Positions 2,112 through 59,117 of a DNA stretch of 64,000 nucleotides are shown one piece after another. This DNA comes from Anadara kagoshimensis. Its lineage: Eukaryota; Mollusca; Bivalvia; Arcoida; Arcidae. Within the stretch, counting starts at the first letter, position 1, and each line of letters starts with the position of its first letter. The stretch lies in contig CM037873.1 in assembly GCA_021292105.1 (NCBI GenBank), positions 16,348,551-16,412,550 on the forward strand, read 5' to 3'. Below the pieces are notes generated by a model that was not told the origin of the DNA, ran no database searches, and worked only from the letters and a program-made list of their open reading frames with translations. Made by a program: the position numbers and the translations under genes.

Positions 2112-4059
2112 ATTTATTCATTGTATTGTATTCAAATGTAGGACAAAAAGATTATATTTTTTATTTTAAGATTGAAGTTTGTTTATCGCTACAAAATGAA
2201 TATATATAAGTGGCAAATTCAAACATACATATGTACACAATCTACTCTGCACATTGCGCTGAGCAGACTGCAAATTCACTTATAGTGGGGAAGTCTCGAT
2301 TAAAGTGAAATATTCCTGACTGGGACGTAAAATTCAAATCAATCAATCAATCAAACACACGCACGTATAAAATCTTGGTTGACGGATCAAATCAGAAAGT
2401 TAGCAGTGCGGACATGGTGAAGCTTCCACTGTACCCCAATACTCATTGTTATTTTAACCACTACGTATGTCACTTCTAAGTTCATTACAGACCTGTCAAA
2501 CATTTTACACTGAGCTAACAAAAAGGACTTGAGGCTCAGCTTCCGATCGGCCTAAAATATTGAAAAATTGTGGCTCAAAGGCTCAAATGTCGCCGAGAAA
2601 TATATATAAAATTCCAAGTTATAGCTATCGAGGAACCAATATTATTTGCCGATTCGGACTGATGTTAACTTTTCATTAGGTCTGCACTGTATGAATACCC
2701 GTAGAACTATCAGAACCCGTTCCTAAAGGAACAAAGCATACTTTGTAGTGATACGCCCTATATATACTAATGATGTAACAGTAAAGTATACATGGACCCT
2801 TAACTGTATGTCATATGATGTGTTATGACATAATTTATAGATAGTACTATAAGATAACACCTTTATATTTAGACCAAGTGAATGCTCTACTATACCTAAA
2901 ACTTTTACTTGTTTACTAATTGTATATATCCATCACACAGTTGTCGTTTATTTTGCATTTTAAAGCTCTTATTCCATAATAAGTGATTGTATATATATAA
3001 TTATAAAACTCATACACAAGCCAATATAATGTGTATATAATATATATGCCTACAAAGTTGCATCAGGTTTTTTCCTATTTTTAAAATATACATTAATATA
3101 TCTATTGGCCTTGTTATCAAAACCAATATGGCTGATTTTATGCATCCACAGTTGTATTAGAAATATTTTAATTCTTTTTAGTTATGTTTTATTTACATAT
3201 AACTTAGTCATTCACAAGTTGTTGCTGATAATACAAAACTTAAAGCTTAAAATTCGAACAAAAAACTGCTATTATACAAAAAATATAAAATACTTTTATT
3301 GAGTCTATCATTACTTGTATGTACACAATATACCCATTACAGATCTGCCAAGTTACATATACTTATAGTCATTCACAAGTTGTTGCTGATATTACAAAAC
3401 TTAAAGCATAAAATTCGAACCAAAAACTGCTATTAAACAAAACATGTAATATACTTATATAAAGTCTACCATTACCTGTTTGTACATAATACTAGTATAC
3501 CCATTACAGATCTGTTCAGAAACAAAAACTAGCGGTTAAAATACTGAAACTGCCATACTTAATTTTTTAATTTCTTTTAAACAAATCGGCTCTAATTATC
3601 ATATTACAAGATACTAAATTTAAATTTCCTTAAAAAACAACATATCAAAACAACAACTGAATAAAACAAAGTTTCTGGTTTTTAATTTACGTTGGTCTAA
3701 CATTATCGATATTCTTCGAGATGACAAACCAGATTTGATCATCGGAATATACCAGACATAATCAGTAGTGCTGGGATTTGATACATACTACATATAATGA
3801 GAAATGATGAGATTTCACATAGGCGGTAATCAAACAAAATATTATAATACACATGATACAGAAATAGTTATAAAAAAATGCTACCAATTTGTAATACTGA
3901 CAAAAGTTGTAAAATATAATAGCTATAGGGATGTGACACAAAAAATAACAATTTTATTATGCTTATTTACTGCAGATCTATAACTTTCGGCGATTAAAGT
4001 CAACAAGTTTCCGAGATCTATCATGTTATTGACATTCAAAAACAAATATCTGCAAATTT

Positions 4060-10302: not shown

Positions 10303-10740
10303 TCACACTTCCATTCCACATGCTAACAACAAGCTGTGATCTTCATCTGGAGTGGTCATCTGTGAATTATATCCTTTTATCTTGGAATACATTATAACAT
10401 TGTTGAAACTTTCAACATAAAACGTATCTTTAGCAAGTACAGAATCGTCCGGGTATTTATAAATAACAGATTCCTCGATGGCTTTTCTCAGCAAATATTT
10501 TATCAGTAATAATTTTTCCTTTTGGCTCATAATTTAGATCTTTTTTTAATCTGGAGTATTTAGTTCAAGAACTATGATTGTTTTGTAGTGGTCTATAATA
10601 TTGATTGAACTGTTTCTTAAAATTTGAGGATCGTTATTACAGTACTTTATACACCAGTGGAAATGAATTACAACAGGTTCTTCTTTGTCGGAAAATTGCT
10701 CAGACCATAAAACTCCCTTATATTTTAAGGGTCCTGGTCC
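10303..10740 (-). pseudogene. Broken fragment of an uncharacterised, possibly transposon-borne protein
   Basis: Two minus-strand open pieces read as one protein with a disruption at about 10530-10550. The first (10740-10546) contains HFHWCIKYCNNDPQILRNS and IIDHYK. The second (10530-10303) contains AIEESVIYKYPDD and KDTFYVESFNNVI. The combination of paired Cys/His residues and a YVESFNN motif resembles, from memory, a repeated uncharacterised protein family of marine invertebrates. I cannot name it. A MITE at 10739 cuts off the N-terminal side. Confidence 0.4.
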
Positions 10741-11238
10741 CGGTTTCACAATCATTCCTTAGCTAAGATATACTTAAATTTAGCAAATTTTTGTAATCTC
10801 TTTTTGGAACTACTGGTGAATATTTTTGTCAAAACTAAATGCAAATGTTTTAATATAGAAGTGATCTTAAAAATGACACCTTAAAATTTTAATTATCTTG
10901 AAAATTAACAAATTTATAAAGATTTAAAATTTTGCAAGATTTAAGTTAAGGAAAATCTCAGCTAAGGAATGGTTGTGAAACCGGAGCCAGGTCCCGGTTT
11001 CACAATCATTCCTTAGCTAAGATATACTTAACTTTAGCAAATTTTTGTAATCTCTTTTTGGAACTACTGGTGAATATTTTTGTCAAAACTAAATGCAAAT
11101 GTTTTAATCTAGAAGTGATCTTAAAAATGACACCTTAAAATTTTAAATATCTTGAACATTAACAAATTTATAAAGATTTAAAATTTTGCAAGATTTAAGT
11201 TAAGGAAAATTTTATCTAAGGAATGATTGTGAAACCGG
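10739..11238. mobile_element. Two head-to-tail copies of a ~246-bp TIR MITE
   Basis: Copies at 10739-10984 and 10993-11238 are joined by an 8-bp linker. Each begins 'cccggtttcacaatcattcc' and ends with the inverse complement, with about 35 bp of inverted repeat. The copies differ at only a few positions, which suggests recent tandem amplification. Relatives lie at 28926-29130 and at the ends of 25867-28912. Confidence 0.8.
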
Positions 11239-12179
11239 AGTCTGAACTTATAGACTGTATTTTTGGTTTCAATTTTTCACACCGTGCCAGGTGCCATTTT
11301 GGTTTAAAGTCTGCTACTAAAGGATTTTATTTTACATATGTATCTATTGCCATATTTTTGTCATGACGGTGAGTTTTAATATTCACTGTTTCTTTTTCTA
11401 AATTTTAATAAAGTTTTATAGTTCCGATTATCTCATGCCTTTGTGATATGTTGTCATCTGATTTTGTTACATGAATTATATCGATCACTTTATGAGTCTC
11501 TCCTCCTATCGTGTCTACACTAGTGTCTTTTGTATTCCTCCTACATCAGTTAGGATGTTAATACTGTAGAATTACTTTTTTATCGCGAGAGATTAATTGA
11601 CGCGTAATTTCGCGAATTCTCGGTCCTGCATTCATATATCACGGGAATATTCCAAGAATCGCGGAAAAGCCAAATATCTGCAATAGACTATGACCGTAGA
11701 AGTAACAACGTCTTAAAAAGGGAGGCAATTGTCTATTGATCACGAATATTAATATTTATATTGTGGTCGCTAGTTTACATATTCACGAAATAACGCAAGG
11801 GGTCAGCACGCGAAATGTGATACTCGCGAATTCAAAGTTATCTAAAATACCGTTCAATGTTTTGTAACTACCAATTTCTTCAAGCAATGCTGTGTGTATA
11901 GAATCAACGACTCGGAAGAAATGACATCTTTGTCTTTTAAAAACTTTTCATTCCAATTCCAGAAAAAGAGCAAACCCTTGCGTAGTGTGATGGCAACATA
12001 CCGCTACAATCAAATGCACGATTTATTATTTTATTTATAAACAAATCCATTTGGTAAATAAGGCGATGACGACCATGAATATTTATATGGTTCTGCTGAT
12101 AAAAACACTGTCATTTAAGTGCACTGACATGTCCCTTGTGCGTGTTCCTTAATACTTTTAATTTGGCATTAAATCTTAC
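11239..12179. other. Intergenic; CGCGAA-rich dispersed repeat
   Basis: No gene seen. About 11575-11850 is rich in 'cgcgaa'-type words (for example atttcgcgaattctcgg), a texture typical of a dispersed invertebrate repeat. The flanks are plain AT-rich sequence. Confidence 0.4.
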
Positions 12180-12938: not shown

Positions 12939-13835
12939 GTTGAATAAGTAACAATCATTCGGTACTAAGTTGAATAGGTAACAATCACTCGGTACTAAGT
13001 TGAATAAGTAACAATCACTCGGTACAAAGTTGAATATGTAACAATCACTTGGTACTAAGTTGAATAAGTAACAATCACTCGGTACTAAGTTGAATAAGTA
13101 ACAATCACTCGGTACTAAGTTGAATATGTAACAATCACTCGGTAATAAGTTGAATAAGTAACAATCACTCGGTACTAAGTTGAATAAGTAACAATCACTC
13201 GGTACTAAGTTGAATAAGTTACAATCACTCGGTAATAAGTTGAATATGTAACAATCACTCGGTACTAAGTTGAATAAGTAACAATCACTCGGTACTAAGT
13301 TGAATATGTAACAATCACTCGGTAATAAGTTGACTAAGTAACAATCACTCGGTACTAAGTTGAGTATGTAACAATCACTCGGTACTAAGTTGAATAAATA
13401 ACAATCACTCGGTACTAAGTTGAGTATGTAACAATCACTCGGTACTAAGTTGAGTATGTAACAATCACTCGGTACTAAGTTGAGTATGTAACAATCACTC
13501 GGTACTAAGTTGAGTATGTAACAATCACTTGGTACTAAGTTGAATATGTAACAATCACTCGGTACTAAGTTGAGTATGTAACAATCACTCGGTACTAAGT
13601 TGAGTATGTAACAATCACTCGGTACTAAGTTGAGTATGTAACAATCACTCGGTACTAAGTTGAATAAATAACAATCACTCGGTACTAAGTTGAATAAGTA
13701 ACAATCACTCGGTACTAAGTTGAATAAGTAACAATCACTCGGTACTAAGTTGAATAAATAACAATCACTCGGTACTAAGTTGAATAAGTAACAATCACTC
13801 GGTACTAAGTTGAGTATGTAACAATCACTCGGTAC
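12939..13835. repeat. 30-bp satellite A, left arm (~30 units)
   Basis: Perfectly phased 30-bp monomers, each with 'ggtactaagttga' and 'taacaatcactc', and diagnostic variants (aataag/aatatg/gtatg). Because 30 is a multiple of three, one minus frame stays open with the decapeptide SDCYLFNLVP. I regard that frame as non-coding. The array is continued at 15215 after a transposon insertion. Confidence 0.95.
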
Positions 13836-15214: not shown

Positions 15215-16102
15215 CTCGGTACTAAGTTGTATAAGTAACAATCACTCGGTACTAAGCTGAGTATGTAACAATCACTTGGTACTAAGTTGAATAAGTAACA
15301 ATCACTTGGTACTAAGTTGAATATGTAACAATCACTCGGTACTAAGTTGAGTATGTAACAATCACTCGGTACTAAGTTGAATAAGTAACAATCACTCGGT
15401 ACTAAGTTGAATAAGTAACAATCACTTGGTACTAAGTTGAATATGTAACAATCACTCGGTACTAAGTTGAATAAGTAACAATCACTCGGTACTAAGTTGA
15501 ATAGGTAACAATCACTCGGTACTAAGTTGAATAGGTAACAATCACTCGGTACTAAGTTGAATAAGTAACAATCACTCGGTACAAAGTTGAATATGTAACA
15601 ATCACTTGGTACTAAGTTGTATAAGTAACAATCACTCGGTACTAAGTTGAATATGTAACAATCACTCGGTAATAAGTTGAATATGTAACAATCACTCGGT
15701 AATAAGTTGAATATGTAACAATCACTCGGTAATAAGTTGAATATGTAACAATCACTCGGTACTAAGTTGAATAGGTAACAATCACTCGGTACTAAGTTGA
15801 ATAAGTAACAATCACTCGGTACAAAGTTGAATATGTAACAATCACTTGGTACTAAGTTGTATAAGTAACAATCACTCGGTACTAAGTTGAATATGTAACA
15901 ATCACTCGGTAATAAGTTGAATATGTAACAATCACTCGGTAATAAGTTGAATATGTAACAATCACTCGGTAATAAGTTGAATATGTAACAATCACTCGGT
16001 ACTAAGTTGAATATGTAACAATCACTCGGTACTAAGTTGAATATGTAACAATCACTCGGTAATAAGTTGAATATGTAACAATCACTCGGTAATAAGTTGA
16101 AT
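15215..16102. repeat. 30-bp satellite A, right arm, with 240-bp higher-order repeat
   Basis: The same monomer as 12939-13835. The variant pattern over 15541-15780 is repeated over 15781-16020, a 240-bp (8-unit) higher-order unit. The array stops at about 16102. Confidence 0.95.
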
Positions 16103-25597: not shown

Positions 25598-28455
25598 CAC
25601 CATATATACATGTAATATCATATTTTATATGGGAACTTACAAAACTGTGTAGTAATTAAAATTCTGCAGGAACATTTTCTGCATGTGGCTTTAGAATTTA
25701 ATTTTTATATGTTATCTACAGAAGTTCGCGCAGTTTTTATAAATTTTAAATATTTCATTTTTTTAAAATGGATTTACTTTATTCGCCCCAGATAGATTAT
25801 TGTATATTTCACATTTCTATCAAATGCACTAGCGACCAAGGATTTCACATTAAAACTGTAACTGGTCCCAGTTTTACCATCGTTTCTTAACGTAGATTTT
25901 CCTTCATTTAAAATTTACAAATTTTAAATCTAAATAATTTTGTTAGTTTTCAAGCTGATAATGAATGAAGTTTAGATGTTATTCTGAAGATCAATTCAAA
26001 TGGTGACTTTCTTAGTTTTTTCCAATATGTTTATTTGTTTTTGCATAAGGATTGCCGGTCTGTTCATGATTGTCCCTTTCCTGAAAAACAGATATTCATT
26101 ATTGTCCCTTTCTGGGTTTGATGTGCTGTTCAAACAAACAATTATAGTCTATTCCAATTTTACCAGTAAGAATTTTACCTGGTGGACTTAATGGAATAAA
26201 AAAAATACTTATTCAAATGTTACTTTTTACTTGGAACAAATGAAATAAAAATAAATTACATTTATTAAAATTTTTAATTTGAAATTTTAGTATGTGTACG
26301 TTTCATTTTATTTTTCATTCTTAAATGTTATGGATTTATTTACTAAAAACAAATGAAATAACAAGAATTCCACGGAATTAGATGTAAACTTTTTTGAGAA
26401 AAAATACTGTTTTCAAATTTTGCATTATTCAACCAATAAGAACATGAAGAATAACAAGAATTCCATGAAGTTAGATTTATCGACTGGTAAACATTTTTAG
26501 AAGAAAATACTTTTTTTTCAAATTTTGCATTAATTCAACCAAGACTTACATAGTCTTTCCACTCCATATAAATGTTAAATTCCAACTACATTTACAACTT
26601 GAATACAGTAAAATTTAAATTAGTGGAAAAAATATCTGCCAAAGGCTCAGATGAGCTATTGCAATCTATCACCGTCCGTCGTCCGCCGTGCGTCGTGCGT
26701 CGTACGTAAACTTTACATTTTAATCTTCTCCTCCAAAACTACTGGGCCAAATTTGATGAAACTTGGTGATTATCCTGCCTGGGTAACAGCCTTTCAAAAT
26801 TGTGTTCGGGGTTTGGTCACGCCCAACAAGATGGCCGCTGTTACTAAAAATAGCAAAAAGACAAAAAATCTTCTTCTCTGAAAGCAAAAGGTGCAGGCAA
26901 ATTTTGATTGGATATTTGGATTCAGCATACCTAGGAACATCAAAATTGTGTTTTTCATAAAAATTAGATGAAAAATAGGTTACGCGTTTTTTGCGTAAAA
27001 TTACGTAATTTTTAAAATGAGACATTTATTGTTATAACTTCATAACGGCTGAAGATACTTGTATGGAGTTTTCACTGTTGATCTTGTCTTGCAATTTTCT
27101 TCCAATTGATGTCAAGGTCGAAGGTCAAGGTCATGTCCCAGTTTTTGACCTTTGATAAAAAATGCTATTTTTTCAACATTTCTTGTGATAATGGCTTAGG
27201 ATTTTCAGTTATTTGTAGGTATTGACATGACGATCATTTTGATACTTAGATCAGGGTCATGGGTTCAAAGGTCAAGGTCACAGATGTCCAAAAATACCAA
27301 AATAGTTAATTATCTGCAAAACTATGAATTTTTTGTATAGGCATGTATATCAGAATATTGTAGGTATTGTTTGATATATGAATGAAGTTCATAGGTTAAA
27401 TGGTTAATTATCTCAAAAACTAAACTTTTTGTATAGTCATGTATATTGGAATAAGGTACGTATTGGCCTAACATTCATTTTGATTAATGAATGAAGGTCA
27501 TAGGTTCAAAGGTCAAGGTCATAAACGCGAACGAATACTTAAATGGTTAATTATCTCAAAAACTATAAACTTTTTGTATAGGCATGTATATTGGAATATT
27601 GTAGGCATTTGCACAACAATCATTTTGATATATGAATGAAGGTCATTGGTTCAAAGGTCAAGGTCATAGATGCAAACAAATACTTAAATGGTTAATTATC
27701 TCAAAAACTATAAACTTTTTGTATAGGCATGTATATTGGAATATTGTAGGTATTGGCCTAATGCACATTTTAATATACAGATGTTTTAGCTGTTTATAAA
27801 TAATATATTGTAGCTAGACTTTAGATATGTTATATATAGCATACTTATGTAATAATTGTTATAATTAATTTGCAAAAATACTTGCATAGTATTGGCCCTT
27901 ACTGCTGAAAATTTTGATATTCTCTTTTATTAATGTCATTGACCATTGAACCTCTGCATAAGATATGTACTCTTCCTCAGGTGAGCGTTAAGGCCCATGG
28001 GCCTCTTGTTTATCAGAAATTTCGAGCTTATCCAAAGATTGAATTAAATGATAAGTAGATATTGCAATATTGCAAACTTTTTCCTCTAACATATCAAAAC
28101 AAAATGTAAATTGCATTACATAACATGTAGGTCAATTTCATAAAGGTTTAAAGGATATTTTGTTATTTATTTTTTGAAAGTTGTACTTTTTCCTCAAAAA
28201 TATCAAAACAAATATAAAATATTTTCAAAAAAAACGATAATAATAATAATAATAATAATTTTTATTTTAAAGTGTAACCCGATTTATACATTATTTCTAG
28301 TAATATTAGTTCCATATTGGTAGAAACTATATTTAAAAATTCAAGAAGAAACATGGAAAAATGTTCCTGTTAGACATTTTCTCAAAATTCACAGTAGTTT
28401 TCTCTAAAAATGCAATGTACCAGTATTATTTTTTACATGTATTTTGATTTTCATT

Positions 28456-28604: not shown

Positions 28605-30534
28605 GATACATGTATTTGTGATTTTTCTAAGATTTATGAATGAATTTAAAGAATAAAACTCTGATAACGTAATATATATTTTTAATTCTTCTTTTACCTT
28701 CTTTTCTGGAATAAACTATACCCCAAGCTGAACTTAAGTCCTATTGTTCCCTATTTCGGTTGAATTCATGATTGTCCCTCTTTTTTTTAACCAAATTCTT
28801 ACCTGGATTTTCATAAAAAGGGACAATCATGAATAAACCGGATTGCCCTAATTTGTTAGATTTATTTTAAGGATTTAAGGAAAATGATAGTTAATGAACG
28901 ATTTGAAACTGGTATATTGAAGAATGGCACCAGTTTCACAAAGATTTCCCTTCACTTAAATTTAGCAAATTTTTGTCATTTTTTTTTAAAGTTAAGATAG
29001 TTGACGCTAGAACTGAACTACAAAATGACACCTTAAATTCCTAAAAGTTTTAAAACTATAGAGATTTTAAATTGAAAATCTAAGTTAATGAAAATCTTAG
29101 TTAAGGAAGTACATGCATTGTGAAACTGGGGTTGTAAACGTTTGGTTATACAGTAAATCAGATGACCCTTAATCAGCGTGCTCTGATGCTAACATTTTAA
29201 AGCCCGAGGAAAGGGTATAAATAGCATGGAGAGAAATTTAAATTTCTTTCAGCTTTCAGATGACAAGAGATTTTTAAAAATATCTCAATTAAGAATTGTT
29301 TTGTTTGTCAACCTTTAAGAACCATTCAAAGTGATTACGTTTCATTTCAGATGGGGTCCGGTTTTGATTGCCGTCTTTGGAGTTGCCAGTATAATTGGTT
29401 GTTGTGTATGTTGTTACAAGTGTTGTTGTGCCAGACCAAACACAACAGGCGTTATATTCCAACCAGCTGGTGGCTCTAATGGAGGTAGGTCCGTCTAGTG
29501 CTGTAAATATAAAACTGGTATAATATGTAATTTAAACCTCTGCTGGTGGCTGGTGCCCCGAGGAAATCACAAACTCAGTAGGCAATAATTTCGTATTATT
29601 GTCAGAAATATACTATAACTGTCTAAATTTCCTGCAATTAAAATTTGAAATTTCTCAAAAACTAAGGTATATTCCCTCATGCAAAGTATTTCCTTAGCTT
29701 AATTTGGTAAAATATATTTTGGTCCTTTGGGTAGCTGTTCAACATTTTCAAATTAATTTTGGTTTCATAATTTTGGTCCAAGCACTACTGATGAGGAATT
29801 GTATTCCGAAACGGCCGTCTAGTGCTGTAAATATAAAACTGGTATAATATGTAATTATAACACCAGGAGAATGGCATAGAAAAAGTTTTGAATTTTCTGA
29901 ATGAAATATTTTTTTGTAAATTGTCATGGTATAAACTGTCATTATTTTTTTTCTGAATGAAATATTTAAAAATTAAAAATAAATTTTTCAAAAATTTTCA
30001 TATAAAAACTGTTATATTATAATTTTTTGAATTTTCTGAATGAAATATTCAGATATTTGTAATATTTGTTTTTAAGATTCAGAAAATGTATTATGACAGT
30101 GGTACTTGGTACTCACTTTATCAGTTAAATACATGCTGATAACATTTTGTACTGTAGGTTATCACCATGACCTTAAACCCTTAAATCTATTTAGAACAGA
30201 TAAGACCCATTGAACTTGATTTTACTTCCTCTTTAATTATATCAAGACACCACCAGCTTTACTTAAAGTGCAGTGGGAGTCCTACCGCTACATGGCACCT
30301 CTCTCGGGAAGTTCAGAATGAACTGGGATAAAACCACTGACATCAGAGATTAGGTAAATGCCTACTAACACTTATTTAAAGTTCACAGATATGTAGTTAA
30401 ATGGGGTTTTTATTTCATTTTCAGGTGTAACTGTTGTCAGTACACAACAACAACAACAGCAGATGATGGCACCACAACCACAAATGTACGATCCATACAA
30501 AGCAGGATATGACCAGAGAAACATGCCTACCTAG
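23117..30534 (+). CDS. Shisa/CYYR1-like small type I membrane protein, four exons
   Basis: Exons are 23117-23171, 25306-25495, 29351-29484 and 30425-30534, all GT-AG with consistent phases, giving 489 nt (162 aa). Exon 1 is a signal peptide (MSKLIPSSLFCLFIFLSLG). Exon 2 is a Cys-rich ectodomain (ECCKG, then WCSDYCCYKLFKYDCC, then FCSDW). Exon 3 is one membrane helix (VLIAVFGVASIIG) followed by a juxtamembrane CCVCCYKCCC cluster, likely palmitoylated. Exon 4 is a Gln/Pro/Tyr tail with a Q6 run and PQMYDPYKAGY. This is the Shisa/CYYR1 layout; family members act as membrane adaptors, and the specific role here is unknown. An AATAAA lies at 30704. The frame is intact. Introns 2 and 3 carry nested transposons and a ribozyme-bearing repeat. 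The name is inferred from architecture. Confidence 0.8.
23740..23906. repeat. (TTTA)n and (TAA)n microsatellites
   Basis: TTTA/TTCA units at about 23745-23830, then TAA units at 23862-23906, inside intron 1. Confidence 0.9.
23907..23965. mobile_element. 59-bp palindromic mini-MITE inside a TAA microsatellite
   Basis: 'tgtcatgtgctgttttt' and its complement flank a short centre. TAA repeats lie on both sides, so the microsatellite was the insertion target. Related to 9971-10031. Confidence 0.75.
23998..24230 (+). repeat. Dispersed repeat with 'ggcggatccagaatttt' head
   Basis: Contains a G-run at about 24022-24030 and 'ggggtgtccgggggtatgc', a texture I know from widespread marine-invertebrate repeats. 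Open frames across it are not credible genes. Confidence 0.5.
24890..25235 (-). repeat. Dispersed SINE-like repeat
   Basis: 'tttcacttatatcgagatgt' at its start and 'cgatacgagtgaaatattt' near its end form an imperfect palindromic frame. The module is shared with 2290-2335 and 12820-12860. Confidence 0.55.
25502..25592. repeat. (AC)n followed by (GA)n
   Basis: Compound microsatellite starting seven bases after exon 2 of the Shisa-like gene (25495). Confidence 0.95.
26641..28014 (+). repeat. Dispersed invertebrate repeat, innermost level
   Basis: Starts 'aggctcagatgagctattgc', includes 'gggccaaatttgatgaaact' and several internal 'ggttcaaaggtcaaggtcat' modules, and ends 'aaggcccatgggcctcttg'. 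A diverged inverted relative lies at 38155-38480. Internal tandem near-copies of about 150 bp occur between 27240 and 27770. Confidence 0.65.
28450..28606. repeat. (TTTA)n microsatellites
   Basis: Two blocks, at about 28457-28487 and 28545-28605. Confidence 0.9.
28926..29130. mobile_element. TIR MITE, 10739 family
   Basis: Begins 'ggcaccagtttcacaaagat' and ends 'gcattgtgaaactggggt'. The interior shares 'aaatttagcaaatttttgtc' with 10739-11238. Confidence 0.7.
29491..29865 (+). mobile_element. Retrozyme-like unit (324-nt monomer between ribozyme junctions)
   Basis: The string 'ccgtctagtgctgtaaatat' occurs at 29491 and again at 29815, exactly 324 bp apart. The second is the 3' half of the hammerhead at 29781-29826; the first is the same 3' half without its 5' part. 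One full monomer (29496-29819) is thus bounded by two cleavage-site junctions, as in genomic retrozymes. It begins six bases after the splice donor of exon 3 of the Shisa-like gene. It encodes no protein and would need reverse transcriptase in trans. Confidence 0.75.
29781..29826 (+). ncRNA. Type I hammerhead self-cleaving ribozyme
   Basis: The elements read directly in order. Stem I 5' strand AGCACTA (29781-29787). Core CTGATGA (29788-29794). Stem II GGAAT/ATTCC with a TGT loop (29795-29807). Core GAA plus A15.1 (29808-29811). A minimal stem III (ACG/CGT around a two-base loop). The GTC cleavage triplet with scissile C at 29819. Stem I 3' strand TAGTGCT (29820-29826). All conserved hammerhead core bases are present and stem I pairs perfectly over 7 bp. 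Very short stem III is typical of metazoan retrozyme hammerheads, which often act as dimers. Activity is inferred. Confidence 0.85.
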
Positions 30535-31888: not shown

Positions 31889-32028
31889 TTGGAACTAAGC
31901 AACAATATCTCACTCATTGTGTCTGATAACGGACCATTTTATGATATTCTGACAACCATTAGTTTTTCGAATACAAAAAAGTGTTTTAGGCCCGTCATCA
32001 TGATGCTGTTGAAAAGGATGTTGTCTCT

Positions 32029-35000
32029 GTATCTAAACTTATACTGTAACCAGGCATTGTATCCAAACTTATCTTGTAACCAGGCATTGTATCCAAACTT
32101 ATCCTGTAACCAGGCATTGTATCTAAACTTATCCTGTAACCAGGCATTGTATCCAAACTTATCCTGTAACCAGGCATTGTATCCAAACTTATCCTGTAAC
32201 AAGGCATTGTATCTAAACTTATCCTGTAACCAGGCATTGTATCCAAACTTATCCTGTAACCAGGCATTGTATCCAAACTTATCCTGTAACCAGGCATTGT
32301 ATCCAAACTTATCCTGTAACCAGGCATTGTATCTAAACTTATCCTGTAACCAGGCATTGTATCCAAACTTATCCTGTAACCAGGCATTGTATCCAAACTT
32401 ATCCTGTAACCAGGCATTGTATCCAAACTTATCCTGTAACCAGGCATTGTATCCAAACTTATCCTGTAACCAGGCATTGTATCCAAACTTATCCTGTAAC
32501 CAGGCATTGTATCAAAACTTATCCTGTAACCAGGCATTGTATCCAAACTTATCCTGTAACCAGGCATTGTATCCAAACTTATCCTGTAACCAGGCATTGT
32601 ATCCAAACTTATCCTGTAACCAGGCATTGTATCCAAACTTATCCTGTAACCAGGCATTGTATCCAAACTTATCCTGTAACCAGGCAATGTTTCCAAACTT
32701 ATCCTGTAACCAGGCATTGTATCCAAACTTATCCTGTAACCAGGCATTGTATCCAAACTTATCCTGTAACCAGGCATTGTATCCAAACTTATCCTGTAAC
32801 CAGGCATTGTATCCAAACTTATCCTGTAACACGGCATTGTATCCAAACTTATTCTGTAACCAGTCATTGTATCCAAACTTATCCTGTAACCAGGCATTGT
32901 ATCCAAACTTATCCTGTAACCAGGCATTGTATCCAAACTTATCCTGTAATCAGGCATTGTATCCAAACTTATCCTGTAACCAGGCATTGTATCCAAACTT
33001 ATCCTGTAACCAGTCATTGTATCCAAACTTATCCTGTAACCAGGCATTGTATCCAAACTTATCCTGTAACCAGGCATTGCATCCAAACTTATCCTGTAAC
33101 CAGGCATTGTATCCAAACTTATCCTGTAACCAGGCATTGTATCTAAACTTATCCTGTAACCAGGCATTGTATCTAAACTTATCCTGTAACCAGGCATTGT
33201 ATCCAAACTTATCCTGTAACCAGGCATTGTATCTAAACTTATCCTGTAACCAGGCATTGTATCCAAACTTATCCTGTAACCAGGCATTGTATCCAAACTT
33301 ATCCTGTAACCAGGCATTGTATCCAAACTTATCCTGTAACCAGGCATTGTATCCAAACTTATCCTGTAACAAGGCATTGTATCTAAACTTATCCTGTAAC
33401 CAGGCATTGTATCCAAACTTATCCTGTAACCAGGCATTGTATCCAAACTTATCCTGTAACCAGGCATTGTATCCAAACTTATCCTGTAACCAGGCATTGT
33501 ATCTAAACTTATCCTGTAACCAGGCATTGTATCCAAACTTATCCTGTAACCAGGCATTGTATCCAAACTTATCCTGTAACCAGGCATTGTATCCAAACTT
33601 ATCCTGTAACCAGGCATTGTATCCAAACTTATCCTGTAACCAGGCATTGTATCAAAACTTATCCTGTAACCAGGCATTGTATCCAAACTTATCCTGTAAC
33701 CAGGCATTGTATCCAAACTTATCCTGTAACCAGGCATTGTATCCAAACTTATCCTGTAACCAGGCATTGTATCCAAACTTATCCTGTAACCAGGCATTGT
33801 ATCCAAACTTATCCTGTAACCAGGCAATGTTTCCAAACTTATCCTGTAACCAGGCATTGTATCCAAACTTATCCTGTAACCAGGCATTATATCCAAACTT
33901 ATCCTGTAACCAGGCATTGTATCCAAACTTATCCTGTAACACGGCATTGTATCCAAACTTATTCTGTAACCAGTCATTGTATCCAAACTTATCCTGTAAC
34001 CAGGCATTGTATCCAAACTTATCCTGTAACCAGGCATTGTATCCAAACTTATCCTGTAATCAGGCATTGTATCCAAACTTATCCTGTAACCAGGCATTGT
34101 ATCCAAACTTATCCTGTAACCAGTCATTGTATCCAAACTTATCCTGTAACCAGGCATTGTATCCAAACTTATCCTGTAACCAGGCATTGCATCCAAACTT
34201 ATCCTGTAACCAGGCATTGTATCCAAACTTATCCTGTAACCAGGCATTGTATCTAAACTTATCCTGTAACCAGGCATTGTATCCAAACTTATCCTGTAAC
34301 CAGGCATTGTATCCAAACTTATCCTGTAACCAGGCATTGTATCTAAACTTATCCTGTAACCAGGCATTGTATCCAAACTTATCCTGTAACCAGGCATTGT
34401 ATCCAAACTTATCCTGTAACCAGGCATTGTATCCAAACTTATCCTGTAACCAGGCATTGTATCCAAACTTATCCTGTAACCAGGCATTGTATCCAAACTT
34501 ATCCTGTAACCAGGCATTGTATCCAAACTTATCCTGTAACTAGGCATTGTATCCAAACTTATCCTGTAACCAGGTATTGTATCCAAACTTACCTGTAACC
34601 AGGCATTGTATCTAAACTTTTCCTGTAACCAGGCATTGTATCCAAACTTATCCTGTAACCAGGCATTGTATCCAAACTTATCCTGTAACCAGGCATTGTA
34701 TCCAAACTTATCCTGTAACCAGGCATTGTATCCAAACTTATCCTGTAACCAGGCATTGTATCCAAACTTATCCTGTAACCAGGCATTGTATCCAAACTTA
34801 TCCTGTAACCAGGCATTGTATCCAAACTTATCCTGTAACCAGGCATTGTATCCAAACTTATCCTGTAACCAGGCATTGTATCCAAACTTATCCTGTAACC
34901 AGGCATTGTATCCAAACTTATCCTGTAACCAGGCATTGTATCCAAACTTATCCTGTAACCAGGCATTGTATCCAAACTTATCCTGTAACCAGGCATTGTA

Positions 35001-35207
35001 TCCAAACTTATCCTGTAACCAGGCATTGTATCCAAACTTATCCTGTAACCAGGCATTGTATCCAAACTTATCCTGTAACCAGGCATTGTATCCAAACTTA
35101 TCCTGTAACCAGGCATTGTATCCAAACTTATCCTGTAACCAGGCATTGTATCCAAACTTATCCTGTAACCAGGCATTGTATCCAAACTTATCCTGTAACC
35201 AGGCATT
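32029..35207. repeat. 30-bp satellite B (~106 units) with higher-order duplication
   Basis: Monomer with 'tcctgtaaccaggcattgta' plus a variable 'tccaaactta'. Single-base variants reappear in the same order 1170, 1140 and 1110 bp later (for example 32201/33371, 32685/33825, 32831/33941, 33061/34171). A 37-39-unit segment was therefore duplicated and then lost single units. After a 29-bp unit near 34590 the remaining ~20 units are almost uniform, which suggests the newest expansion. Four of six frames stay open through the array because 30 is a multiple of three. I treat none as coding. Confidence 0.95.
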
Positions 35208-47819: not shown

Positions 47820-49095
47820 ATAAAACCTTCAGCAAATTAAAAGCTAGTGTTTATCACCACCGAGCCAGTATCTATGCTGATGGATGTTTCCCCAATGATA
47901 TCACAAACTCAGTAGGCAATAAGTGTGTATTATTGTCAGAAATATGCTATTGTCTAAATTTACTGCAAGTTAAAATAGGTATGGCGGGATTGATGGGATT
48001 TTATCCTTAATACTAGTAGACCGTTTGGGTTTTTTAAAAAAATAAACGTCAAAATATTGTTGCACTTAAATAAAAAAAGCAATATTTTATGCGAGTTTTC
48101 AGGTTTTGGCTAATACACAGGTTTATTTTGCAGGCATTTGTCTTAGTAATATAATCTTTGTGCTCATTATGCTTAAATATAAAAAATGAGGGGGGGGGGT
48201 CCCGTCTTGAATAATTATTTTCATGTTCTCCTCGGAAGACTAACTTTTACGTACTTGTTTCTTAAAATATTTTTAAGAGCTTTACGAGTTTTCAAAAAAT
48301 TTGGTCCTCTTACGAAAAAATTGTCAATTTTTAAAAAAAATTATGAAAAACTTGCCACTGCACATATAACTGATGTTATATTTTAACGGCGCTAACACTA
48401 AGTGCTATGGTTAGCTCAGTGCGTAGCGAGTACGCTTTGTAACCTGTACGAAATGATATAAAGTCCTATTCGTTTTCTTTTTTAAAAATACTATTGTTAA
48501 ATTTAGCCGTTTGTAGAAATATCTGCTTTTAAAAATGATCATTTTCTTCTTTTAAATCAAAATTCCTACTAGCAGATCAAGCCATGTCATATTTTTATAC
48601 AATCAATACACATATACACATATCACCCGTGAATTCTTACTGAAGCATTATGCTAGTAATTATTTTTTGTTCTAGTCATATTTTAATCATATATACATGA
48701 AATATTAAGATTTTGGATGTTTAGGTTTGTTCAATATTCTTGGCTCTTCAAGAAAAACAAGTTTACAAAAAACGAAGCGCCTGTTGTTTATAGACTTGGT
48801 CTAATTATAGAGTTCGAAATCCTCGGATTTTTAAAAATGCATGTACATCATTATGTCATTCATCCGTTTTAGCAGGGGCAATGTAAAATGCGTCTATCAG
48901 ACCCGCCATACATTTTGAAAATTCTCAGATTTATTCCCATATACAAAGTAGTTCCTTAGCTAAATTTGGTAAATATATTATGGTCCTTTTAATTATTTTC
49001 TCAACACCTTGAGATACAAATGGTTTCATAATTTTGGTCCAAGCACTACTGATAAAGAATTGTGCTGTAAAATTAAAACTGGTATAATACATAAT
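47820..49095 (+). mobile_element. Decayed retrozyme copy split by a TIR insertion
   Basis: 47890-47975 matches 29560-29635 ('atcacaaactcagtaggcaa'). 48912-49095 matches 29650-29865. Between them lies an element of about 930 bp (47979-48911) with 10-bp ends gtatggcggg/cccgccatac. The hammerhead at 49043-49068 keeps the stem I 5' strand but has lost the 3' core and cleavage site through a deletion. Confidence 0.65.
48400..48470 (+). repeat. tRNA-like fragment inside the 47979 insertion
   Basis: 'ggttagctcagtgcgtagcg' resembles a tRNA A-box region. No B box or acceptor stem was found, so I treat it as a SINE remnant or chance. Confidence 0.25.
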
Positions 49096-49224
49096 TCTAT
49101 ACTATAAGTCAAATGTTACTTACTTGAACGGATGCCGGACAACGATATACTTTAAAATATCTACGATAATTTTCTACACCGAAGAAAGACAAGCTGCTTA
49201 CAAATAACTCCTGACACATGGACA

Positions 49225-49840
49225 TTGTAAACCTAGGCCTATTTAGGTTTTACTACCTTCATCACAATATTATTGAGTATGATGTCTCTGTATCGGAAAT
49301 TACCCTGGAAAGACGCCCCATCGTTCCATGTTCTTTTCATTCTCGATTGAGATAATACAAGTGGTGGATGTAGCTGAGATAAAGGTGCTTACCCTTTTGG
49401 AACATTTGTTCTCACTTCTCTGATAAAATTTTACATGTTTAACTTTATTTGCCAGATTCAATCATTTTCATAACCTCTCATCGAACATTGACGGGTATGT
49501 TTGTTCTTGATTGATACAAAAACTCCAGTATATTGAGTCAACTTCCATATTGTAACAATAAAACGAATAAAGTGATTTAGTGTTAAAATACTTTTAACAA
49601 CATTCATCGAGTCAGTCTAATTCACGGCCATTGCAATAATGTTTCATTATCGTATCATTTATTTGAACAAAATTCAATATAAATATTATTCTAAAATAAC
49701 ATGACAAATAACATCCAAGGTGCACCCAGTTTCACTTACCTGGTGGATGTTCGTGTGTTTAATTCAATTTAATTCAAAGTTTTTGTTTTTTGGATTGTGA
49801 TTTGATCATGGACCAGTATGTTTGTGTTTGATTGCGCATG
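49225..49840 (+). repeat. Two copies of dispersed repeat family R1
   Basis: Copies at about 49225-49560 and 49720-49840 share 'gcttaccctt' and 'cttacctggtggatgttcgt'-type text with 55060-55330 and 35335-35460. Confidence 0.6.
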
Positions 49841-51798
49841 TGTTGAATCGCACTCTGGAAAAAATGTGTACGATAACAATCATTTGAATTAGACAGATTC
49901 AAAGTAAAACTATAAAACTCATTTTATTTATTAGTGTATAATAAAAATAATAATAAACAATAAAATCTAGATAAAGAAACATGTAAAATTGTCGTCCAAA
50001 CTCCAATACTCTCTGAAATTAATGTTCAATTCACACTGGTATAATATGTAATTATATTGTTAGCACATCTCCCTTATTACGTGTAGAATTGAAATCTTTA
50101 AAACACTCCGTATAACAAATTACTCAGAGAAATATCTTCTGTTTGAAACCAAATTTTCTCTCATATAACAGATCTTTAAATATTGTATATTGTACCAAAT
50201 TAAGTATGATTGAATTCTCTCCCTCTTTTCCTTCGCCCAATCTACATATTTTATTTTTATATTTCACTGGATTGTTCATGTTACCTAATTTAAACTAATT
50301 TTCCTTTATTTGCACCTGAAAATTTCGTTTAAACTTTAATTGAACCTTTAATTTATGTTTTGAAACCCAAATCAGCCCTAAATTTCTCCTTTTTTTACTT
50401 TGAAAAATTCCTATGTTCGGAAAGATTTAATTCACCAATAACATAATTATTTGTCATATTTTCTCTCTAAATAACTAATTTAGTCAACGCACATGGTTCA
50501 TCTTTCATTTATTGCACCTTTCTATGCTTTTGCATAGATAATATTTTCTTAAACATTATGATGATGCCAGCACCATCTCAAATAAATTTAAAAAAACGTA
50601 TTACACTATACACATCGTTGACAGTTATTCTTTAGCAAATGTCATGTCCCACTATCTGCTTCTTGCTGTTACGACAGCCCTATATATACAACCAAATTTT
50701 GTCTAACCACACCCACTCCTCACTTTGTATACATCACACAGATTTACATATAATCAACTACTGAGTATCAACTATAAAAACAAAAACAAAACACGTGTAC
50801 ATTTGATTAAACAATGTCTATCATCTAACCATAGTAAAGTTTTAGCAATTTAATTCTATTCATATGTAATCGATACACAAAAAGAAAATGCACATTTTCA
50901 CACTAAAAGCCAACATTTTCTAATAAATCTATACACACCATTGAATAGAATTATCTCAATATATCTTTAAAGTTTTTTAAATCGAGCAACCCTACCTAGC
51001 AGGTCTGAGAAAGAGAACTAAAATGCACAAACATAATAAGATGGCATAAATTGTTTTGTTACACAACCAGCTGAATTGCCAATTATAAACTCAATTCACA
51101 TTTTACGTAGATCATATAGAAACACATCAATATAGAATTCAATGTCATATGATAAACTTCACATTGTATTTACAATGCTAACTGATCTCCTACAAAAACT
51201 CTGTTTAAAATTCATTCGTTCTTAGATTATGACGCAATGTGCGTTGATAATAAGAATCACGCGTCTTTTAAGTTGTACAAAATGACGCATGAAAACGTTT
51301 TCTATGGCGTCTAATAGTTAAATTATATCCGGATGACAATTAGTATTTTTGCGGTTGTATGGTAATTAGTCTCTTTTATCTTAAAGAATGATTAAAATGT
51401 TTAGTAAATTATAATCAACATTGAATTTGCCACACACTTTTATGTTTCTTTGACTGGTACAAAACTACGATGTCTGTAGATTTGGTGGATCGACTCCTCC
51501 TGGTTTTTGATTTACAGACGATAAAGATAATTTCAGTGCTTGAAAGAGTATTTATTTTACCATAACCTTAAATGTTATTTCGGAGTTATTTTTAAAAGAT
51601 ATTGTCAATATAAGATTCGACGGACATTTTAATCCTGGTTTATCAACTGCGTCGCAGTTCATCAGATTTATTTCCTAGTTTTAAGACCTGGTTCATTACT
51701 TGATGTACCAGGAAAAATTACAATCAATTTGAAAATAAATGCGACTAATTTTCCGAACCGAATTAAAGTTTCGGAAGTGCGTACATGTGACACATAGA
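49841..51798. other. Intergenic and 3' UTR of the nSTAND-like gene
   Basis: AT-rich with many short A/T runs. No gene on either strand. The part from about 51200 to 51798 may be 3' UTR of the minus-strand gene that follows. Confidence 0.4.
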
Positions 51799-54700
51799 TC
51801 AAGATAAGTCAGTTTTATCGAGAAGACTCATGATATATTTGCCTTCTTGAATATACTTGTTCATATGTCGTGCCAAGTAGCGACGAATTTCTTGCTTCAT
51901 TGTGTAGTCCAATATTTTCAAATTATCTTTCAAAAGGAGTTTTAGACTTTTCAAGTCACCGCGTTGTGCAAATCCCAATATGATATCTTTCACACTATTC
52001 ACTGACTTGTCCTTGCCAATTGTTCCATTATCACCAGAATTTAATGAACTGTTTTTTGTTTTTGTTTCATCATCTGGTTTTAAGGCTTCCGAATCTGGAT
52101 TTCCAATATCGATGATATTTTCTTTTCCAAATATATCCATGTAATTTTTCAACAAATCAACATATTCGTCAAAAACTTCGTGCGTTGTTGTAATAATTAC
52201 TTTTGTGTTCCATTCGGTTATACAACTTAAAAGAACGTCCAGCTGTGGCATCCATTCTTCAAACTTGTGGCGGCTTTCTATGAATCTTCCAAATATATCT
52301 TCAATAAACAACAATTGTTCCTTGTAAAAATCTACTACCTCGATGAAATCCTGGACAGATCCTATGGAGTATTTACTTTCAAACTTCTGGGACATGCTGG
52401 CAAACAATCTCTTACCAAATAAGGTTTTTCGACTAATATTTTGCCTTCGTATAATCACAATATTGCTTCTATCGAGTAGGGATAAAGCGCGCTGGTAATC
52501 CAACTCTTCATCGGCATTTACCTTGGTCCCATTATGTTTTTTAATTATAGAGTTTGTCGAATCTGTAAAATAAGAAAAATGAATGGTTACCAACTGTACA
52601 TTGCTTTTCCATAAACGTATCGTAAATACACTGCTTGTTTTAAAATATTAACTGTTAAGCAATACATGTATCCATGTTCAATCTAACAGTTTGCAATTGG
52701 AGCCCACCTTAGATATAGCTTTGAATTTAACACCAGGTTTTTCAACTATAACAAAAAAAAATCATTTTTTCATTGATGTTTTGAATATTCATTAAAACAG
52801 TTCACTCTAGCAGTATGACTTGATATGTCGTCATACAAACTTAATAACATGTTGAGTAATTTGCAATCAAGCAACTGCTTTTGAATCGTTTAAAGGGTGG
52901 TAAATGCTAAACCTTTAGTTTGCCTCATGTAGATAGATATTTCTATTCGACAAAAGATAACTTAGTTACAAGAAAAATTTAAAGGAGATTTCCAAACATT
53001 TTGGTTGGTACTGTAGATGTGCTCTTCCGCGTAAGTGAGGAACTTTATAATGTAATTACTTACGAATTATAGATTGTCTTCTTTTTTCATGACCTGCAAT
53101 GCGAAAGTACGTTAATTGGGGTCTACTAAGCAAAACTACAAATAAGCTTATTTATTGATGATTGCGTTTCTTTAATTAGAAAAGGCGGCCGTGGTGCTAT
53201 AACTTTAACTGTCATGAAAATGAAATTAAACAAGATTGGTTCACATAACAATTTGTTCCTCGTCGTTGAAATTAAGTGGATAAAGTATAACAAAAGAAGA
53301 TGCTTTCTGTTAAAATTGTATGGAAATTGCGTACACAAGATGTTTCGATGTTAAATAATACTAAACATGGTCCAAGTCCCATAACTCCTATCAAAATTGA
53401 CAATCAATACAGATATAGTACACATATTCACACCATAGCAATAAATCCTATTAAATATCAACTCAACCAGAAACATACTACACCAGAAACATACTACTCA
53501 TACTGATCAATACTCAGGGTACAAGGCCCAAGGCATGTACAACTGGTTTATTCAGTATTCAGTGTGCTCTTGATCCCTTTGGTGTTTTCAAATTATGTGC
53601 TTTCCAGCTTTGAATGATTCATACCTAAAACTATTGTGTTTTCTTTTCCAGATTGCAGGTTCACCTTGGCACCAACGGTTCCCCTCAGATCAACATAAGA
53701 TGCTGATTTAGCAATCTTCTTGTTTACATTATCTTCATATGCAAAAGAAATATATTTTTCAAAGTCCTTAGTGTTTATTTAAACAACAACTCATTTTATC
53801 TTTTTTTCCTTTCAACACCTAGAAAACATTTGGTTTCACAATTTTGATACAAGCACTACTAATGAGCAATTGTGTTCTCCTGAAACGGCCGTCTAGTGTG
53901 TAGTGTACAGTTAATACTGGCATTATATATGTACTTTTTCATGTGCAGTTGCAATACATGCTCATATAACGACATGACCCGCAAATTGTGGACAATCCTT
54001 TGCTGTTTTAATGAAAACCTCAACAACTGTGTATACTCCCTCATGCAAAGTATTTTCTTATTACATTTAATATTAAATATATTTTTGTCCATTGGTTATT
54101 TTTTCAACCCCTTAAAATTTTGGTTTCAAAATTTTGGCCCAAGCACTATTGATTAGGAATTGTATTCTAGCTTCTGCTGTAAAATTAAAATTAGTATAAT
54201 TTGTAATTTGATAAATGATGTCAAACACATAAATTTTACTTGTTATACAATTAAAAATGGTCTTTGTCCATGAAATTTTGACAATTTTCCCCTTAGACGC
54301 AGCGGAGTAATGGAGTTTTACACCAGAGTCAATATTCGTCTTTAGGTTAGCTTTTCAACATCTTGTAAAAAGAATTTGGTCCAAGCACTACTGATGAGAA
54401 AATGTATTCAGAAACGACCGTCTAGTGCTGTAAAATTAACACTGGTACAATATGTAATGACAACGAATATTACCTGATTGCTGTACTATTGTTTCGTTGC
54501 CGTCGTCAAACACAGAATATTCACATGCACCTTCCGTATCTGCCGTTAAATAGCCACTGCTTAAGGATAGTTCAGAAACATTTCTACTACCTGTGAACAT
54601 AATAAAGTCTTATTTAAATTATTTTTAATTATTTTATCTTTTTAATTGGGTTTTAACTATCGATCTCAAAACAGAATAATGAGAAAATACAGTAATTATA

Positions 54701-56632
54701 ATAAAATTTAAAGTAGTGTTACCAGTAGTAATATCTAGGTTTATCTTGTTTTGTTTTTAATGTACCTCGTATCATCTAGATTCAAGCTACTATCGTAAAG
54801 TACATACATTGTATTTGTAAGCTTCAGAAATTACTCCAGTGATTCCGACTAATAAATTTCGACTAACACAGTACAGACACGTGGAAGGTTGTGGCACTAA
54901 CGTTTTCAAACATATTATTCCAAGTATAACACAATTTTGAGAATGTTCACCATTTTTAGGTTGATAAAATTTTACTATATATTTTTGTTACATATTTTTT
55001 CATAGATTTGGAATAGATAGCTATCATTTTTTTAAAGCCGTCAAAAGGTTTACTGTAATACTGTTGATAAGTATGAAGTCTCTGTATCAAAAATTTATTT
55101 GAATAAATTTCACGTCTCATAGATCGATGTTCGTTTAATTTCCAATTTTAATTATACATGTGGCGGATGTAGCTATAGCTAAACAGGAAATGTTTACCCT
55201 TTTGGAGCACCCGACCTTACTTCCATGGTGGAAGTTCATGTGTTTAACCTAATTTGCCAGCTTCAATATTTTTTCTTTGCTTTGAGAATATGATTTTGGC
55301 ATGGATCGGTATGTTTGTCTTTGATTGGTACAAATTACAAACGTAAAGATTGCCTAATGATTGTGTATTGTTTTAAGCGACATCAATAATAATAGGTAAT
55401 TACAACCAATTACCTTTTTATAAATCTCCAGGATTTACCTCAAATAAATAACCCAATTCATGTGATGTGGGATTCGTGAGTTTATGGTGATGTATTGAGT
55501 GCAAGAGTCATTGCATTAGTCAAAAATGTCGCAGAATAACGACACCATTTAATTTTTAGACTTGTAGTGGACCCATAAGTACGGCCTTACAACAAGGATT
55601 TTTTTCGTTTAAAAGAAATGTCGTTACCTCTGGATCAACGCGGTTTCTAGACGGCAACTAAGATATACAGAACAAATATATTTAAAATTGTAGTTTAAAC
55701 ACCATCAAACAAATACCTAAAACCATCAATAATAAATACCTTTAAACAGTACAAAGCTAAAAAAAACACCCCCCCAAAAAAGAAATTCTTTCAAGAGTCC
55801 ACTGATTATGAAATCCTAACATTTCCAAAGAATTACATATGATGAAATGTTACCGAATTTCTGTTTACTTGGGTTACATTCCGACAATGAAGACGTCTGT
55901 GTTTCTGTTCTGTTTGCTCTCGTGTCTGTTACTGATGTAGATTTGATATTAGAACTGGCTGATAAAAGAAAAGGTATGCAATGTTATCAATCAATATGGA
56001 TATGTTTACAAACAGCAAAGTTCTGCCTAACAACTAAATCAAATTAAAACATTTCTCGCCTAACCTTACCTTCGATCAGAAGAGGATCGAATATGATGTT
56101 TGACCTTGTTCGGTTTTGATTATAAATATTTTTGTTTTACTCTGATTTTGAAGATCATTACAAACTCTGGTACTTACGTTTGAACTCGGTAAAACAAGTC
56201 GCCCTGTAATGAAGAAATCACCATATGCGTCTTGACCATTCAAGTAACGTATAAATAGGAGTTTTCTGAAGAGGACGTGAAGAATTGTGCGAGATTTTCC
56301 TTCTAACAATGCCAAATCTTGCCGAATCGTGGAGAAAATTCTGATTTGTCCATTTATAGTGGATGATAATAAACGTTGCAATTTTGTTTTAAATATTTAT
56401 GTCTTTTGTTTATTTTTGCAACCCCTTAGAATTGTTTCACAATATTGGTTCACACACTACTATTGAGAAATTGTATGCCGAAATATTCTAGTGCTGTTTT
56501 AACACTGGTATAAAATTAATTTCCTACAATTGACTTTATTGAAGTATTTTTAATTTATAAAAAACACACCTTGTTTTATTTCTTGTGGCTCGAAAACTTT
56601 CCTCAGCTTCTTAACTCTCTCACCGCAGCGCC
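51799..56632 (-). CDS. 3' portion of a gene ending in a degenerate nSTAND-like NTPase domain
   Basis: Six exons are supported in transcript order: 56632-56570, 55958-55854, 54590-54474, 53732-53625, 53093-53064 (30 nt) and 52562-51799. All have GT-AG borders, start and end in phase 1, and the internal ones are multiples of three; together they encode about 394 residues. The first exon is basic (GERVKKLRKVF), as after a membrane segment. Exons two to five are Ser/Thr-rich linker. The last exon resembles the nSTAND3 family: beta-1 SNIVIIRR, a Walker A position reduced to RRQNISRKT, Walker B-like QLLFIEDIFGRF, and KVIITTTHEVF where nSTAND3 proteins usually keep an Arg. Loss of the P-loop glycines predicts a non-hydrolysing pseudo-NTPase. 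The 5' end (possibly a receptor ectodomain) was not found and may lie beyond 64000. Family assignment is inference; splicing of the small exons is moderately certain. Confidence 0.65.
52563..53063. other. Intron of the nSTAND-like gene
   Basis: No feature beyond AT-rich intron sequence. Confidence 0.4.
53064..53093 (-). CDS. 30-nt microexon of the nSTAND-like gene
   Basis: Acceptor 'ctttcgcattgcag' and a consensus donor 'gtaagtaatt' bound 30 nt reading GHEKRRQSII in the phase required by both neighbours. Length and symmetric phase make it skippable. Needs transcript support. Confidence 0.5.
53790..54460 (+). mobile_element. Cluster of three decayed retrozyme copies in an intron
   Basis: Hammerhead remnants lie at 53853-53899, 54143-54180 and 54385-54428, about 290 and 242 bp apart, all antisense to the host gene. 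The third keeps CTGATGA, GAAAC, the GTC site and a perfect stem I, but stem II pairing is lost. The first has CTAATGA in place of CTGATGA. The second lost its 3' core. The bodies share 'actccctcatgcaaagtatt' and 'ttttggcccaagcac'-type text with 29670-29785. All three are probably inactive. Confidence 0.7.
55060..55330 (+). repeat. Dispersed repeat family R1, long copy
   Basis: One of the fullest copies, from 'aagtatgaagtctctgtatc' through 'cttttggagcacccgacctt' to 'catggatcggtatgtttgtc'. It lies in an intron of the nSTAND-like gene. Confidence 0.65.
56410..56520 (+). mobile_element. Retrozyme 3' remnant
   Basis: Stem I halves 'cacta' (56455) and 'tagtgc' (56489) survive around a mutated core (ctattga, cgaaat), followed by 'taacactggtataaaatt', the usual downstream text. 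Confidence 0.55.
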
Positions 56633-57987: not shown

Positions 57988-58255
57988 CTATCTTTACCCT
58001 TCTTCTGGGTTCTTGTACTGTGTCTATGCGCGTTTTTTTTTCTCTCATATAAAGGTGTATTATACTTTTTAGAACTATTATGCTATTATTTGTATTCTGT
58101 AATACACTTATGATGTACAATGTTTAGTAATAATACATGTATCTGAGTTGATCATAACAGTACAAGTGTACTTATAATCCCGGAAAATACATTGCATGGA
58201 CACTAATTAAGTGCAAGCGCTATTATACATTATTTTGTATATTCCTTATATACTT

Positions 58256-58600
58256 TTTTTCCCTCTTCATATGCAACTATCAATTTATCTATCATAATTG
58301 TTATGTGCTACTTTTGTACTATTTTGTAAATATTCAAAATTTGCACATACAAAAGATAGTACTACACTAAAAAGGATAGAGTAATATCGGCCCGAAATGC
58401 GCGCGCACATGTACGTTGCGGTTTTTTAATATTGTTTTTTTTCCCTCTTCATATACAAATATCAATTTATCTATCATAATTGTTATGTGCTACTTTTGTA
58501 CTATTTTGTAAATATTCAAAATTTGCACATACAAAAGATAGTACTACACAAAAAAGGATAGAGTAATATCGGCCCGAAATGCGCGTACACATACACATAC
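58256..58600. repeat. 182-bp tandem duplication
   Basis: The copies start with 'ccctcttcata' at 58261 and 58443 and run through 'gtaatatcggcccgaaatgc'. They are nearly identical. Each contains the inverted pair 'gtgctacttttgt' / 'acaaaagatagtac'. Confidence 0.85.
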
Positions 58601-58984: not shown

Positions 58985-59117
58985 AATGCAAGCAAACATG
59001 AATAGTCAAATACGTAGTTGTATTTTTGTAAATAAGTTATCTTTCATACTGCATGTAGAATATATGTATAAGTTTTTGTTATATATTACAACGCATTGTT
59101 ATTATATCATTTAAATC

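Follow-up and report, generated by a model that had tools for sequence, protein, structure and literature searches.

The 64,000-nucleotide stretch of the Anadara kagoshimensis genome analyzed here (hereinafter the window) contains, at positions 29491 to 29856 of the plus strand, a 366-nt insertion that carries a type I hammerhead ribozyme motif and most probably arose from a bivalve family of non-autonomous, non-LTR retrozymes. This insertion, denoted copy A, consists of a 324-nt unit (29496 to 29819, plus strand), flanked by the two predicted cleavage sites, and a 42-nt terminal repeat; six additional, partial copies of the same repeat are found in the window, and those that retain the tail share the 3' end of copy A.

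The hammerhead itself occupies positions 29781 to 29826 (plus strand) and, as proposed in the initial annotation, is complete, with a minimal stem III: all parts can be read at this position. An open, 7-bp stem I (AGCACTA/TAGTGCT) adjoins the core CTGATGA, followed by a 5-bp stem II (GGAAT/ATTCC) with a 3-nt loop (TGT), GAA, ACGGCCGT, the C after which cleavage is predicted (C29819), and TAGTGCT. The motif thus combines the conserved core with three helices, stem I being open as in type I hammerheads, an assignment that is based on the core and the pairing rather than on Rfam. Within a single strand, stem III is limited to 2 bp (A-U and C-G), with the palindromic GGCC as the loop, because any further pairing would shrink the loop to 2 or 0 nt.

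By itself, the core CTGATGA-N(8-30)-GAAA is no rarity (4 occurrences compared to 1.0 expected) and can be due to chance. A descriptor that requires stems of 7, 5 and 2 bp matches once in the window (both strands) and in none of 300 dinucleotide shuffles, in agreement with the original claim that a chance occurrence is unlikely. Relaxed versions do match shuffled sequences (1 in 300 with stems of 6, 4 and 2 bp; 7 in 300 with 4, 3 and 1 bp), and an earlier, looser descriptor gave 3 matches in 30 first-order random sequences. The motif at 29781-29826 is confirmed as real and beyond chance expectation.

Comparison with the Rfam model of the type I hammerhead, the check suggested along with the original prediction, supports the motif in part. 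In a scan of 58 bases against RF00163 (Hammerhead_1), all model positions (1-45 of 45) are aligned, with a score of 28.1 bits and an E-value of 8.8e-06 that applies to a short stretch picked on account of the motif; the score is below the gathering score of this model, 34 bits. Wide scans do not include the hammerhead: there is no match at the gathering score when the whole window is compared to Rfam, and no hammerhead row in a scan of 1101 bases with E-values up to 10.

In folding predictions, the energies of which exclude tertiary contacts, the minimum fold of the isolated 46-mer (-12.3 kcal/mol) is different from the hammerhead (-7.8 kcal/mol with the 2-bp stem III), and the lowest-energy fold of a 48-mer of the motif is likewise not a hammerhead. 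When two motifs are co-folded, they form a double hammerhead at -34.5 kcal/mol, compared to -12.3 kcal/mol for the single motif, with the palindromic ACGGCCGU as an 8-bp stem III; the co-fold energies agree with a predicted action of the hammerhead as a dimer. Action as dimers has been described for axolotl hammerheads in which stem III is short (PMC7229834). In particular, the description of HHR_Amex2 (PMC7229834) resembles the present case in the scale of the unit (330-350 bp), a stem III of 2 pairs with a tetraloop, and more efficient cleavage by dimers; it differs in the vertebrate host and in a stem II mismatch that is absent from the hammerhead described here. Mytilus hammerheads are described as lacking most of the conserved bases for contacts between loops 1 and 2 (PMC7229834).

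The two copies of the terminal repeat of copy A, at 29491-29532 and 29815-29856 (both plus strand), are identical (0 differences in 42 positions) and are spaced by 324 nt; the 5' copy starts with the substrate half of the hammerhead, CCGTC^TAGTGCT, and the 3' copy stops at the common 3' end, TAATT. This spacing matches the junction between 29819 and 29496 that had been proposed for a putative circular RNA. Copy A accordingly amounts to 1.13 units, and no full second tandem unit was found in the 64-kb window. Copy A starts 5 nt upstream of the predicted cleavage site, which is not expected from a cleaved linear monomer; this 5-nt lead could also be due to chance, for which a simple count gives a probability of roughly 1 in 1000. 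The GC content of the unit (33%) is close to that of the window (32%), and the longest stop-free frame is 53 codons, that is, the unit contains no ORF. Behind copy A, an AT-rich stretch at 29886-30100 includes three instances of a 25-nt motif and a 47-nt imperfect inverted repeat, possibly another small element.

With copy A as the BLAST query, six further partial copies were detected in the window at E-values of 3.2e-13 or lower, all on the plus strand; rows weaker than an E-value of 1e-3, on both strands, were discarded as chance. All six were recovered in a second BLAST comparison. Copy H (47872 to 47976) is a body fragment only (unit positions 43-149; 84% identity, E 2.4e-27). In copy B (48914 to 49096; E 7e-28), a deletion destroyed the hammerhead; in copy D (53829 to 53928; E 1.2e-18; 11.5 bits with Hammerhead_1), a core base is changed; copies E (54019 to 54208; E 2e-34) and G (56434 to 56522; E 3.2e-13) have a changed core as well; and copy F (54375 to 54459; E 5.7e-29; 22.1 bits with Hammerhead_1) keeps the core but has a mispaired stem II. 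Copy C (50035 to 50056, plus strand), a 22-nt match to the tail (E 1.3e-5), is doubtful: it is missing from the second BLAST comparison, and its alignment score, 45, is below the shuffle maximum of 54. Copy A alone contains an intact hammerhead; the other copies in the window fail the descriptor even with stems of 4, 3 and 1 bp. The six clear copies (B and D-H) lie within 9 kb (47872-56522), in the same orientation as copy A. Two words of the retrozyme family had 0 matches in viral contigs. Candidates retrieved with a general hammerhead pattern (L001) or, from genome contigs, with a family-like core pattern (L002-L005) contain no hammerhead at the Rfam gathering score and were rejected as chance or unrelated matches.

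All five further copies that retain the tail (B, D, E, F and G) have BLAST alignments that end at unit positions 355-362, that is, 31-38 nt 3' of the predicted cleavage site. Over the 20 bases that precede this end, the copies are on average 86% identical in pairwise comparison, a value that falls to 27% over the following 20, compared to 28% for random pairs (15 pairs from A, B, C, E, F and the internal repeat of A; D and G, with indels in the tail, and H, without a tail, were left aside). When the doubtful copy C is removed, the values for the remaining 10 pairs are 84% before the common end and 27% after it. Because the BLAST ends are shared and the identity drops to the baseline, the family has a defined 3' end that is located within the unit sequence. 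At the opposite side, the BLAST alignments start near unit positions 149-167 (B and E) or 263-277 (D, F and G), in two groups without scatter. In a laxer alignment, all old copies run upstream into AT-rich sequence, so that their 5' ends are poorly placed; the regions in that alignment had been trimmed to the 3' ends already known and carry no evidence on the latter. These patterns suggest 5' truncation of the old copies.

An alternative that we regard as unlikely is that the repeats are a truncated tandem satellite that carries a hammerhead by chance and spread as DNA, without reverse transcription, through unequal crossing over or through rolling-circle or segmental duplication. Six clear copies in 9 kb in one orientation would be expected from local duplication, and no target-site duplication above chance was found in copies A, B, C, E, F and G, the 5' ends of which are uncertain: the longest flank matches of these copies are 5-7 nt, a length that between 80 and 419 of 500 random pairs also attain. 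However, B, D, E, F and G have a common end inside the unit and differing flanks, with identity at the baseline, which is not expected from a duplicated tandem array, and copy A is located 18 kb away from the cluster.

The surroundings of copy A are compatible, by eye, with an intron: an exon-like frame at approximately 29351-29484 is followed by a splice donor, GTAGGT (29485-29490), with copy A directly after it, and an acceptor at approximately 30424 precedes another exon-like frame, which would make the intron approximately 940 nt long. According to the initial annotation, the hammerhead is transcribed in sense with a Shisa-like gene and lies in intron 3. The sense intron is plausible; the label 'Shisa-like' is weak because the frame at 25242-25496 matches Shisa_N with only 13.7 bits (E 0.066), under the cut-off of 22, and the other two exon-like frames have no domain match. 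The additional proposal that the hammerhead cuts the host pre-mRNA intron found no support, as the motif is carried by a dispersed repeat that has six further clear copies in the window. More generally, a ribozyme retained in the intron for the host gene, where it would cut the pre-mRNA or the intron, appears extremely improbable: the motif is intact, in sense to the exon-like frames and located in the putative 940-nt intron, but it belongs to the dispersed repeat, and its intactness is accounted for by recent insertion, as indicated by the lack of differences between the terminal repeats. Because the motif lies within a dispersed repeat, the locus is best read as a transposable-element insertion and not as a part of the gene.

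Type I hammerheads in animal repeats of about 170-400 nt have been described as non-LTR retrozymes that make circular RNAs (PMC7229834), and the unit size, GC content of 33%, hammerhead type and absence of an ORF of the Anadara repeat fit this class (about 170-400 nt), as do the multiple genomic copies (copy A and six clear ones in 64 kb). The closest comparison is with Mytilus galloprovincialis, in which about 5000 hammerheads have been reported in repeats of approximately 350-390 bp (Cervera and de la Pena 2020, PMC7229834). Compared by description, the two share the type I hammerhead, a short, low-GC, non-coding unit, multiple copies and a bivalve host; in Anadara, however, the unit is 324 nt, and the repeat is present as partial copies plus a single insertion (1.13 units) instead of full tandem dimers. 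The Anadara repeat departs from the class in its predicted folding: published retrozyme circles are described as highly self-paired, whereas the predicted 324-nt circle folds at -58.0 kcal/mol, compared to -55.4 +/- 4.6 kcal/mol for shuffled sequences (z -0.58; 53 of 200 shuffles fold as low), so that no unusual structure is predicted. The missing second tandem unit, the lack of target-site duplications above chance and the Rfam score below the gathering value may also count against the retrozyme reading.

Penelope-like elements are described as only a strong candidate for retrozyme mobilization (PMC7229834). For the Penelope-like protein of the anole (Poseidon), reverse transcription is described to begin inside the RNA, which matches the tail of 30-40 bp in genomic copies, and the hammerhead of the element is reported as dispensable for insertion in vitro (PMC11167929). 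The Anadara insertion and Poseidon, as described, are alike in that a hammerhead lies close to the insertion end and is followed downstream by a fixed end; the retrozyme differs in that it has no coding capacity, and the likeness, which is by description, is one of shape only. A further possibility is that copy A is a remnant of an autonomous Penelope-like element, with its hammerhead-bearing terminal repeat, rather than a retrozyme; this seems very unlikely. The hammerhead is indeed close to the fixed 3' end, as in the tails of Penelope-like copies (PMC11167929), but the unit joins back to its own start after 324 nt and has no ORF, no Penelope-like domain was detected in the 10 ORFs scanned out of 29 with a length of at least 120 aa, and neither the unit nor these 10 ORFs include a reverse transcriptase and GIY-YIG endonuclease ORF of the Penelope type.

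Under the retrozyme interpretation, we infer the following cycle. Tandem or terminally redundant copies would be transcribed, and the type I hammerhead would cut these transcripts, possibly in a dimeric form that is joined through the palindromic segment in stem III; the resulting RNA of about 324 nt would be circularized by a host ligase. The reverse transcriptase of another element would then initiate at a constant position, some 37 nt beyond the cleavage site, and run round the circle, and the cDNA would be inserted. The common 3' end suggests such a fixed internal start of reverse transcription, similar to that described for a Penelope-like element (PMC11167929). In the case of copy A, 366 nt would have been copied, just over one lap, and inserted directly 3' of the splice donor, the excess of 42 nt over one lap resulting in the 42-nt terminal repeat; such an excess is expected from a circular or multimeric template.

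The release of a circle from the copy A locus itself would require two cuts, and the upstream repeat contains the substrate half only, without a second ribozyme; the second cut could come from a split hammerhead. The substrate half in the 5' repeat (CCGUC^UAGUGCU) could pair with the downstream catalytic strand, forming a 7-bp stem I and a 4-bp stem III with type III topology and a loop of about 280 nt, so that one ribozyme could cut both ends and no tandem array would be required. Initiation at a constant internal site some 37 nt beyond the cleavage site, through Penelope-like priming, followed by a copy of just over one lap, would then yield a complete circle factory. We consider this extension of the model, which is based on one intact copy, unlikely. 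When enforced in the element transcript, the split fold (-67.3 kcal/mol) is lower in energy than the type I fold (-64.9 kcal/mol), but the unconstrained minimum (-70.7 kcal/mol) is 3.4 kcal/mol below the split fold and has a mispaired core; with two separate strands, a mispaired fold is also preferred.

Apart from the retrozyme copies, the window contains three large arrays of tandem repeats with a 30-bp period, at 12939-13835 and 15215-16102 (about 30 copies each) and 32028-35207 (about 106 copies); as this period is divisible by 3, long repetitive open frames persist, and in the largest array they do so on both strands. Four other tandem arrays, with approximately 2-2.5 copies each, are located at 3193-3491 (period of 161 bp), 10736-11240 (254 bp), 27396-27761 (145 bp) and 58254-58592 (182 bp); the hammerhead descriptor matches nothing in these retrozyme-sized repeats. 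A LINE with endonuclease and reverse transcriptase domains is present at 59115-62929, with more frames downstream, and may be broken. No named bivalve is among the best 120 of its 903 protein matches; one of the listed matches, P0128, is a LINE-type reverse transcriptase labelled as a metagenome-assembled genome (MAG) of Candidatus Thiodiazotropha, a bivalve symbiont, and looks like host DNA inside a bacterial bin. In addition, among the best 120 of 212 matches of an HSPA12-like frame, the highest-ranking one with a species name is from Mytilus galloprovincialis (46%), below others of up to 95%. An IMPACT-like frame (6 matches) has one from Tegillarca granosa (82%, covering 34% of the query) and another of 37% that covers 89%. 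These protein matches point to a bivalve host, perhaps nearer to ark clams than to Mytilus, the latter suggestion being based on the one short match to Tegillarca granosa.

None of the literature matches listed on bivalves reports a retrozyme or hammerhead of an ark clam, which does not prove that there is no such report. Copy A is mainly a further example of a type of element known from mussels and other animals, and it adds a bivalve retrozyme family with an intact hammerhead. The common 3' end of this family bears on the identity of the reverse transcriptase that mobilizes animal retrozymes and on the site at which copying starts; a fixed start on a circular template, if true, would be testable in vitro.
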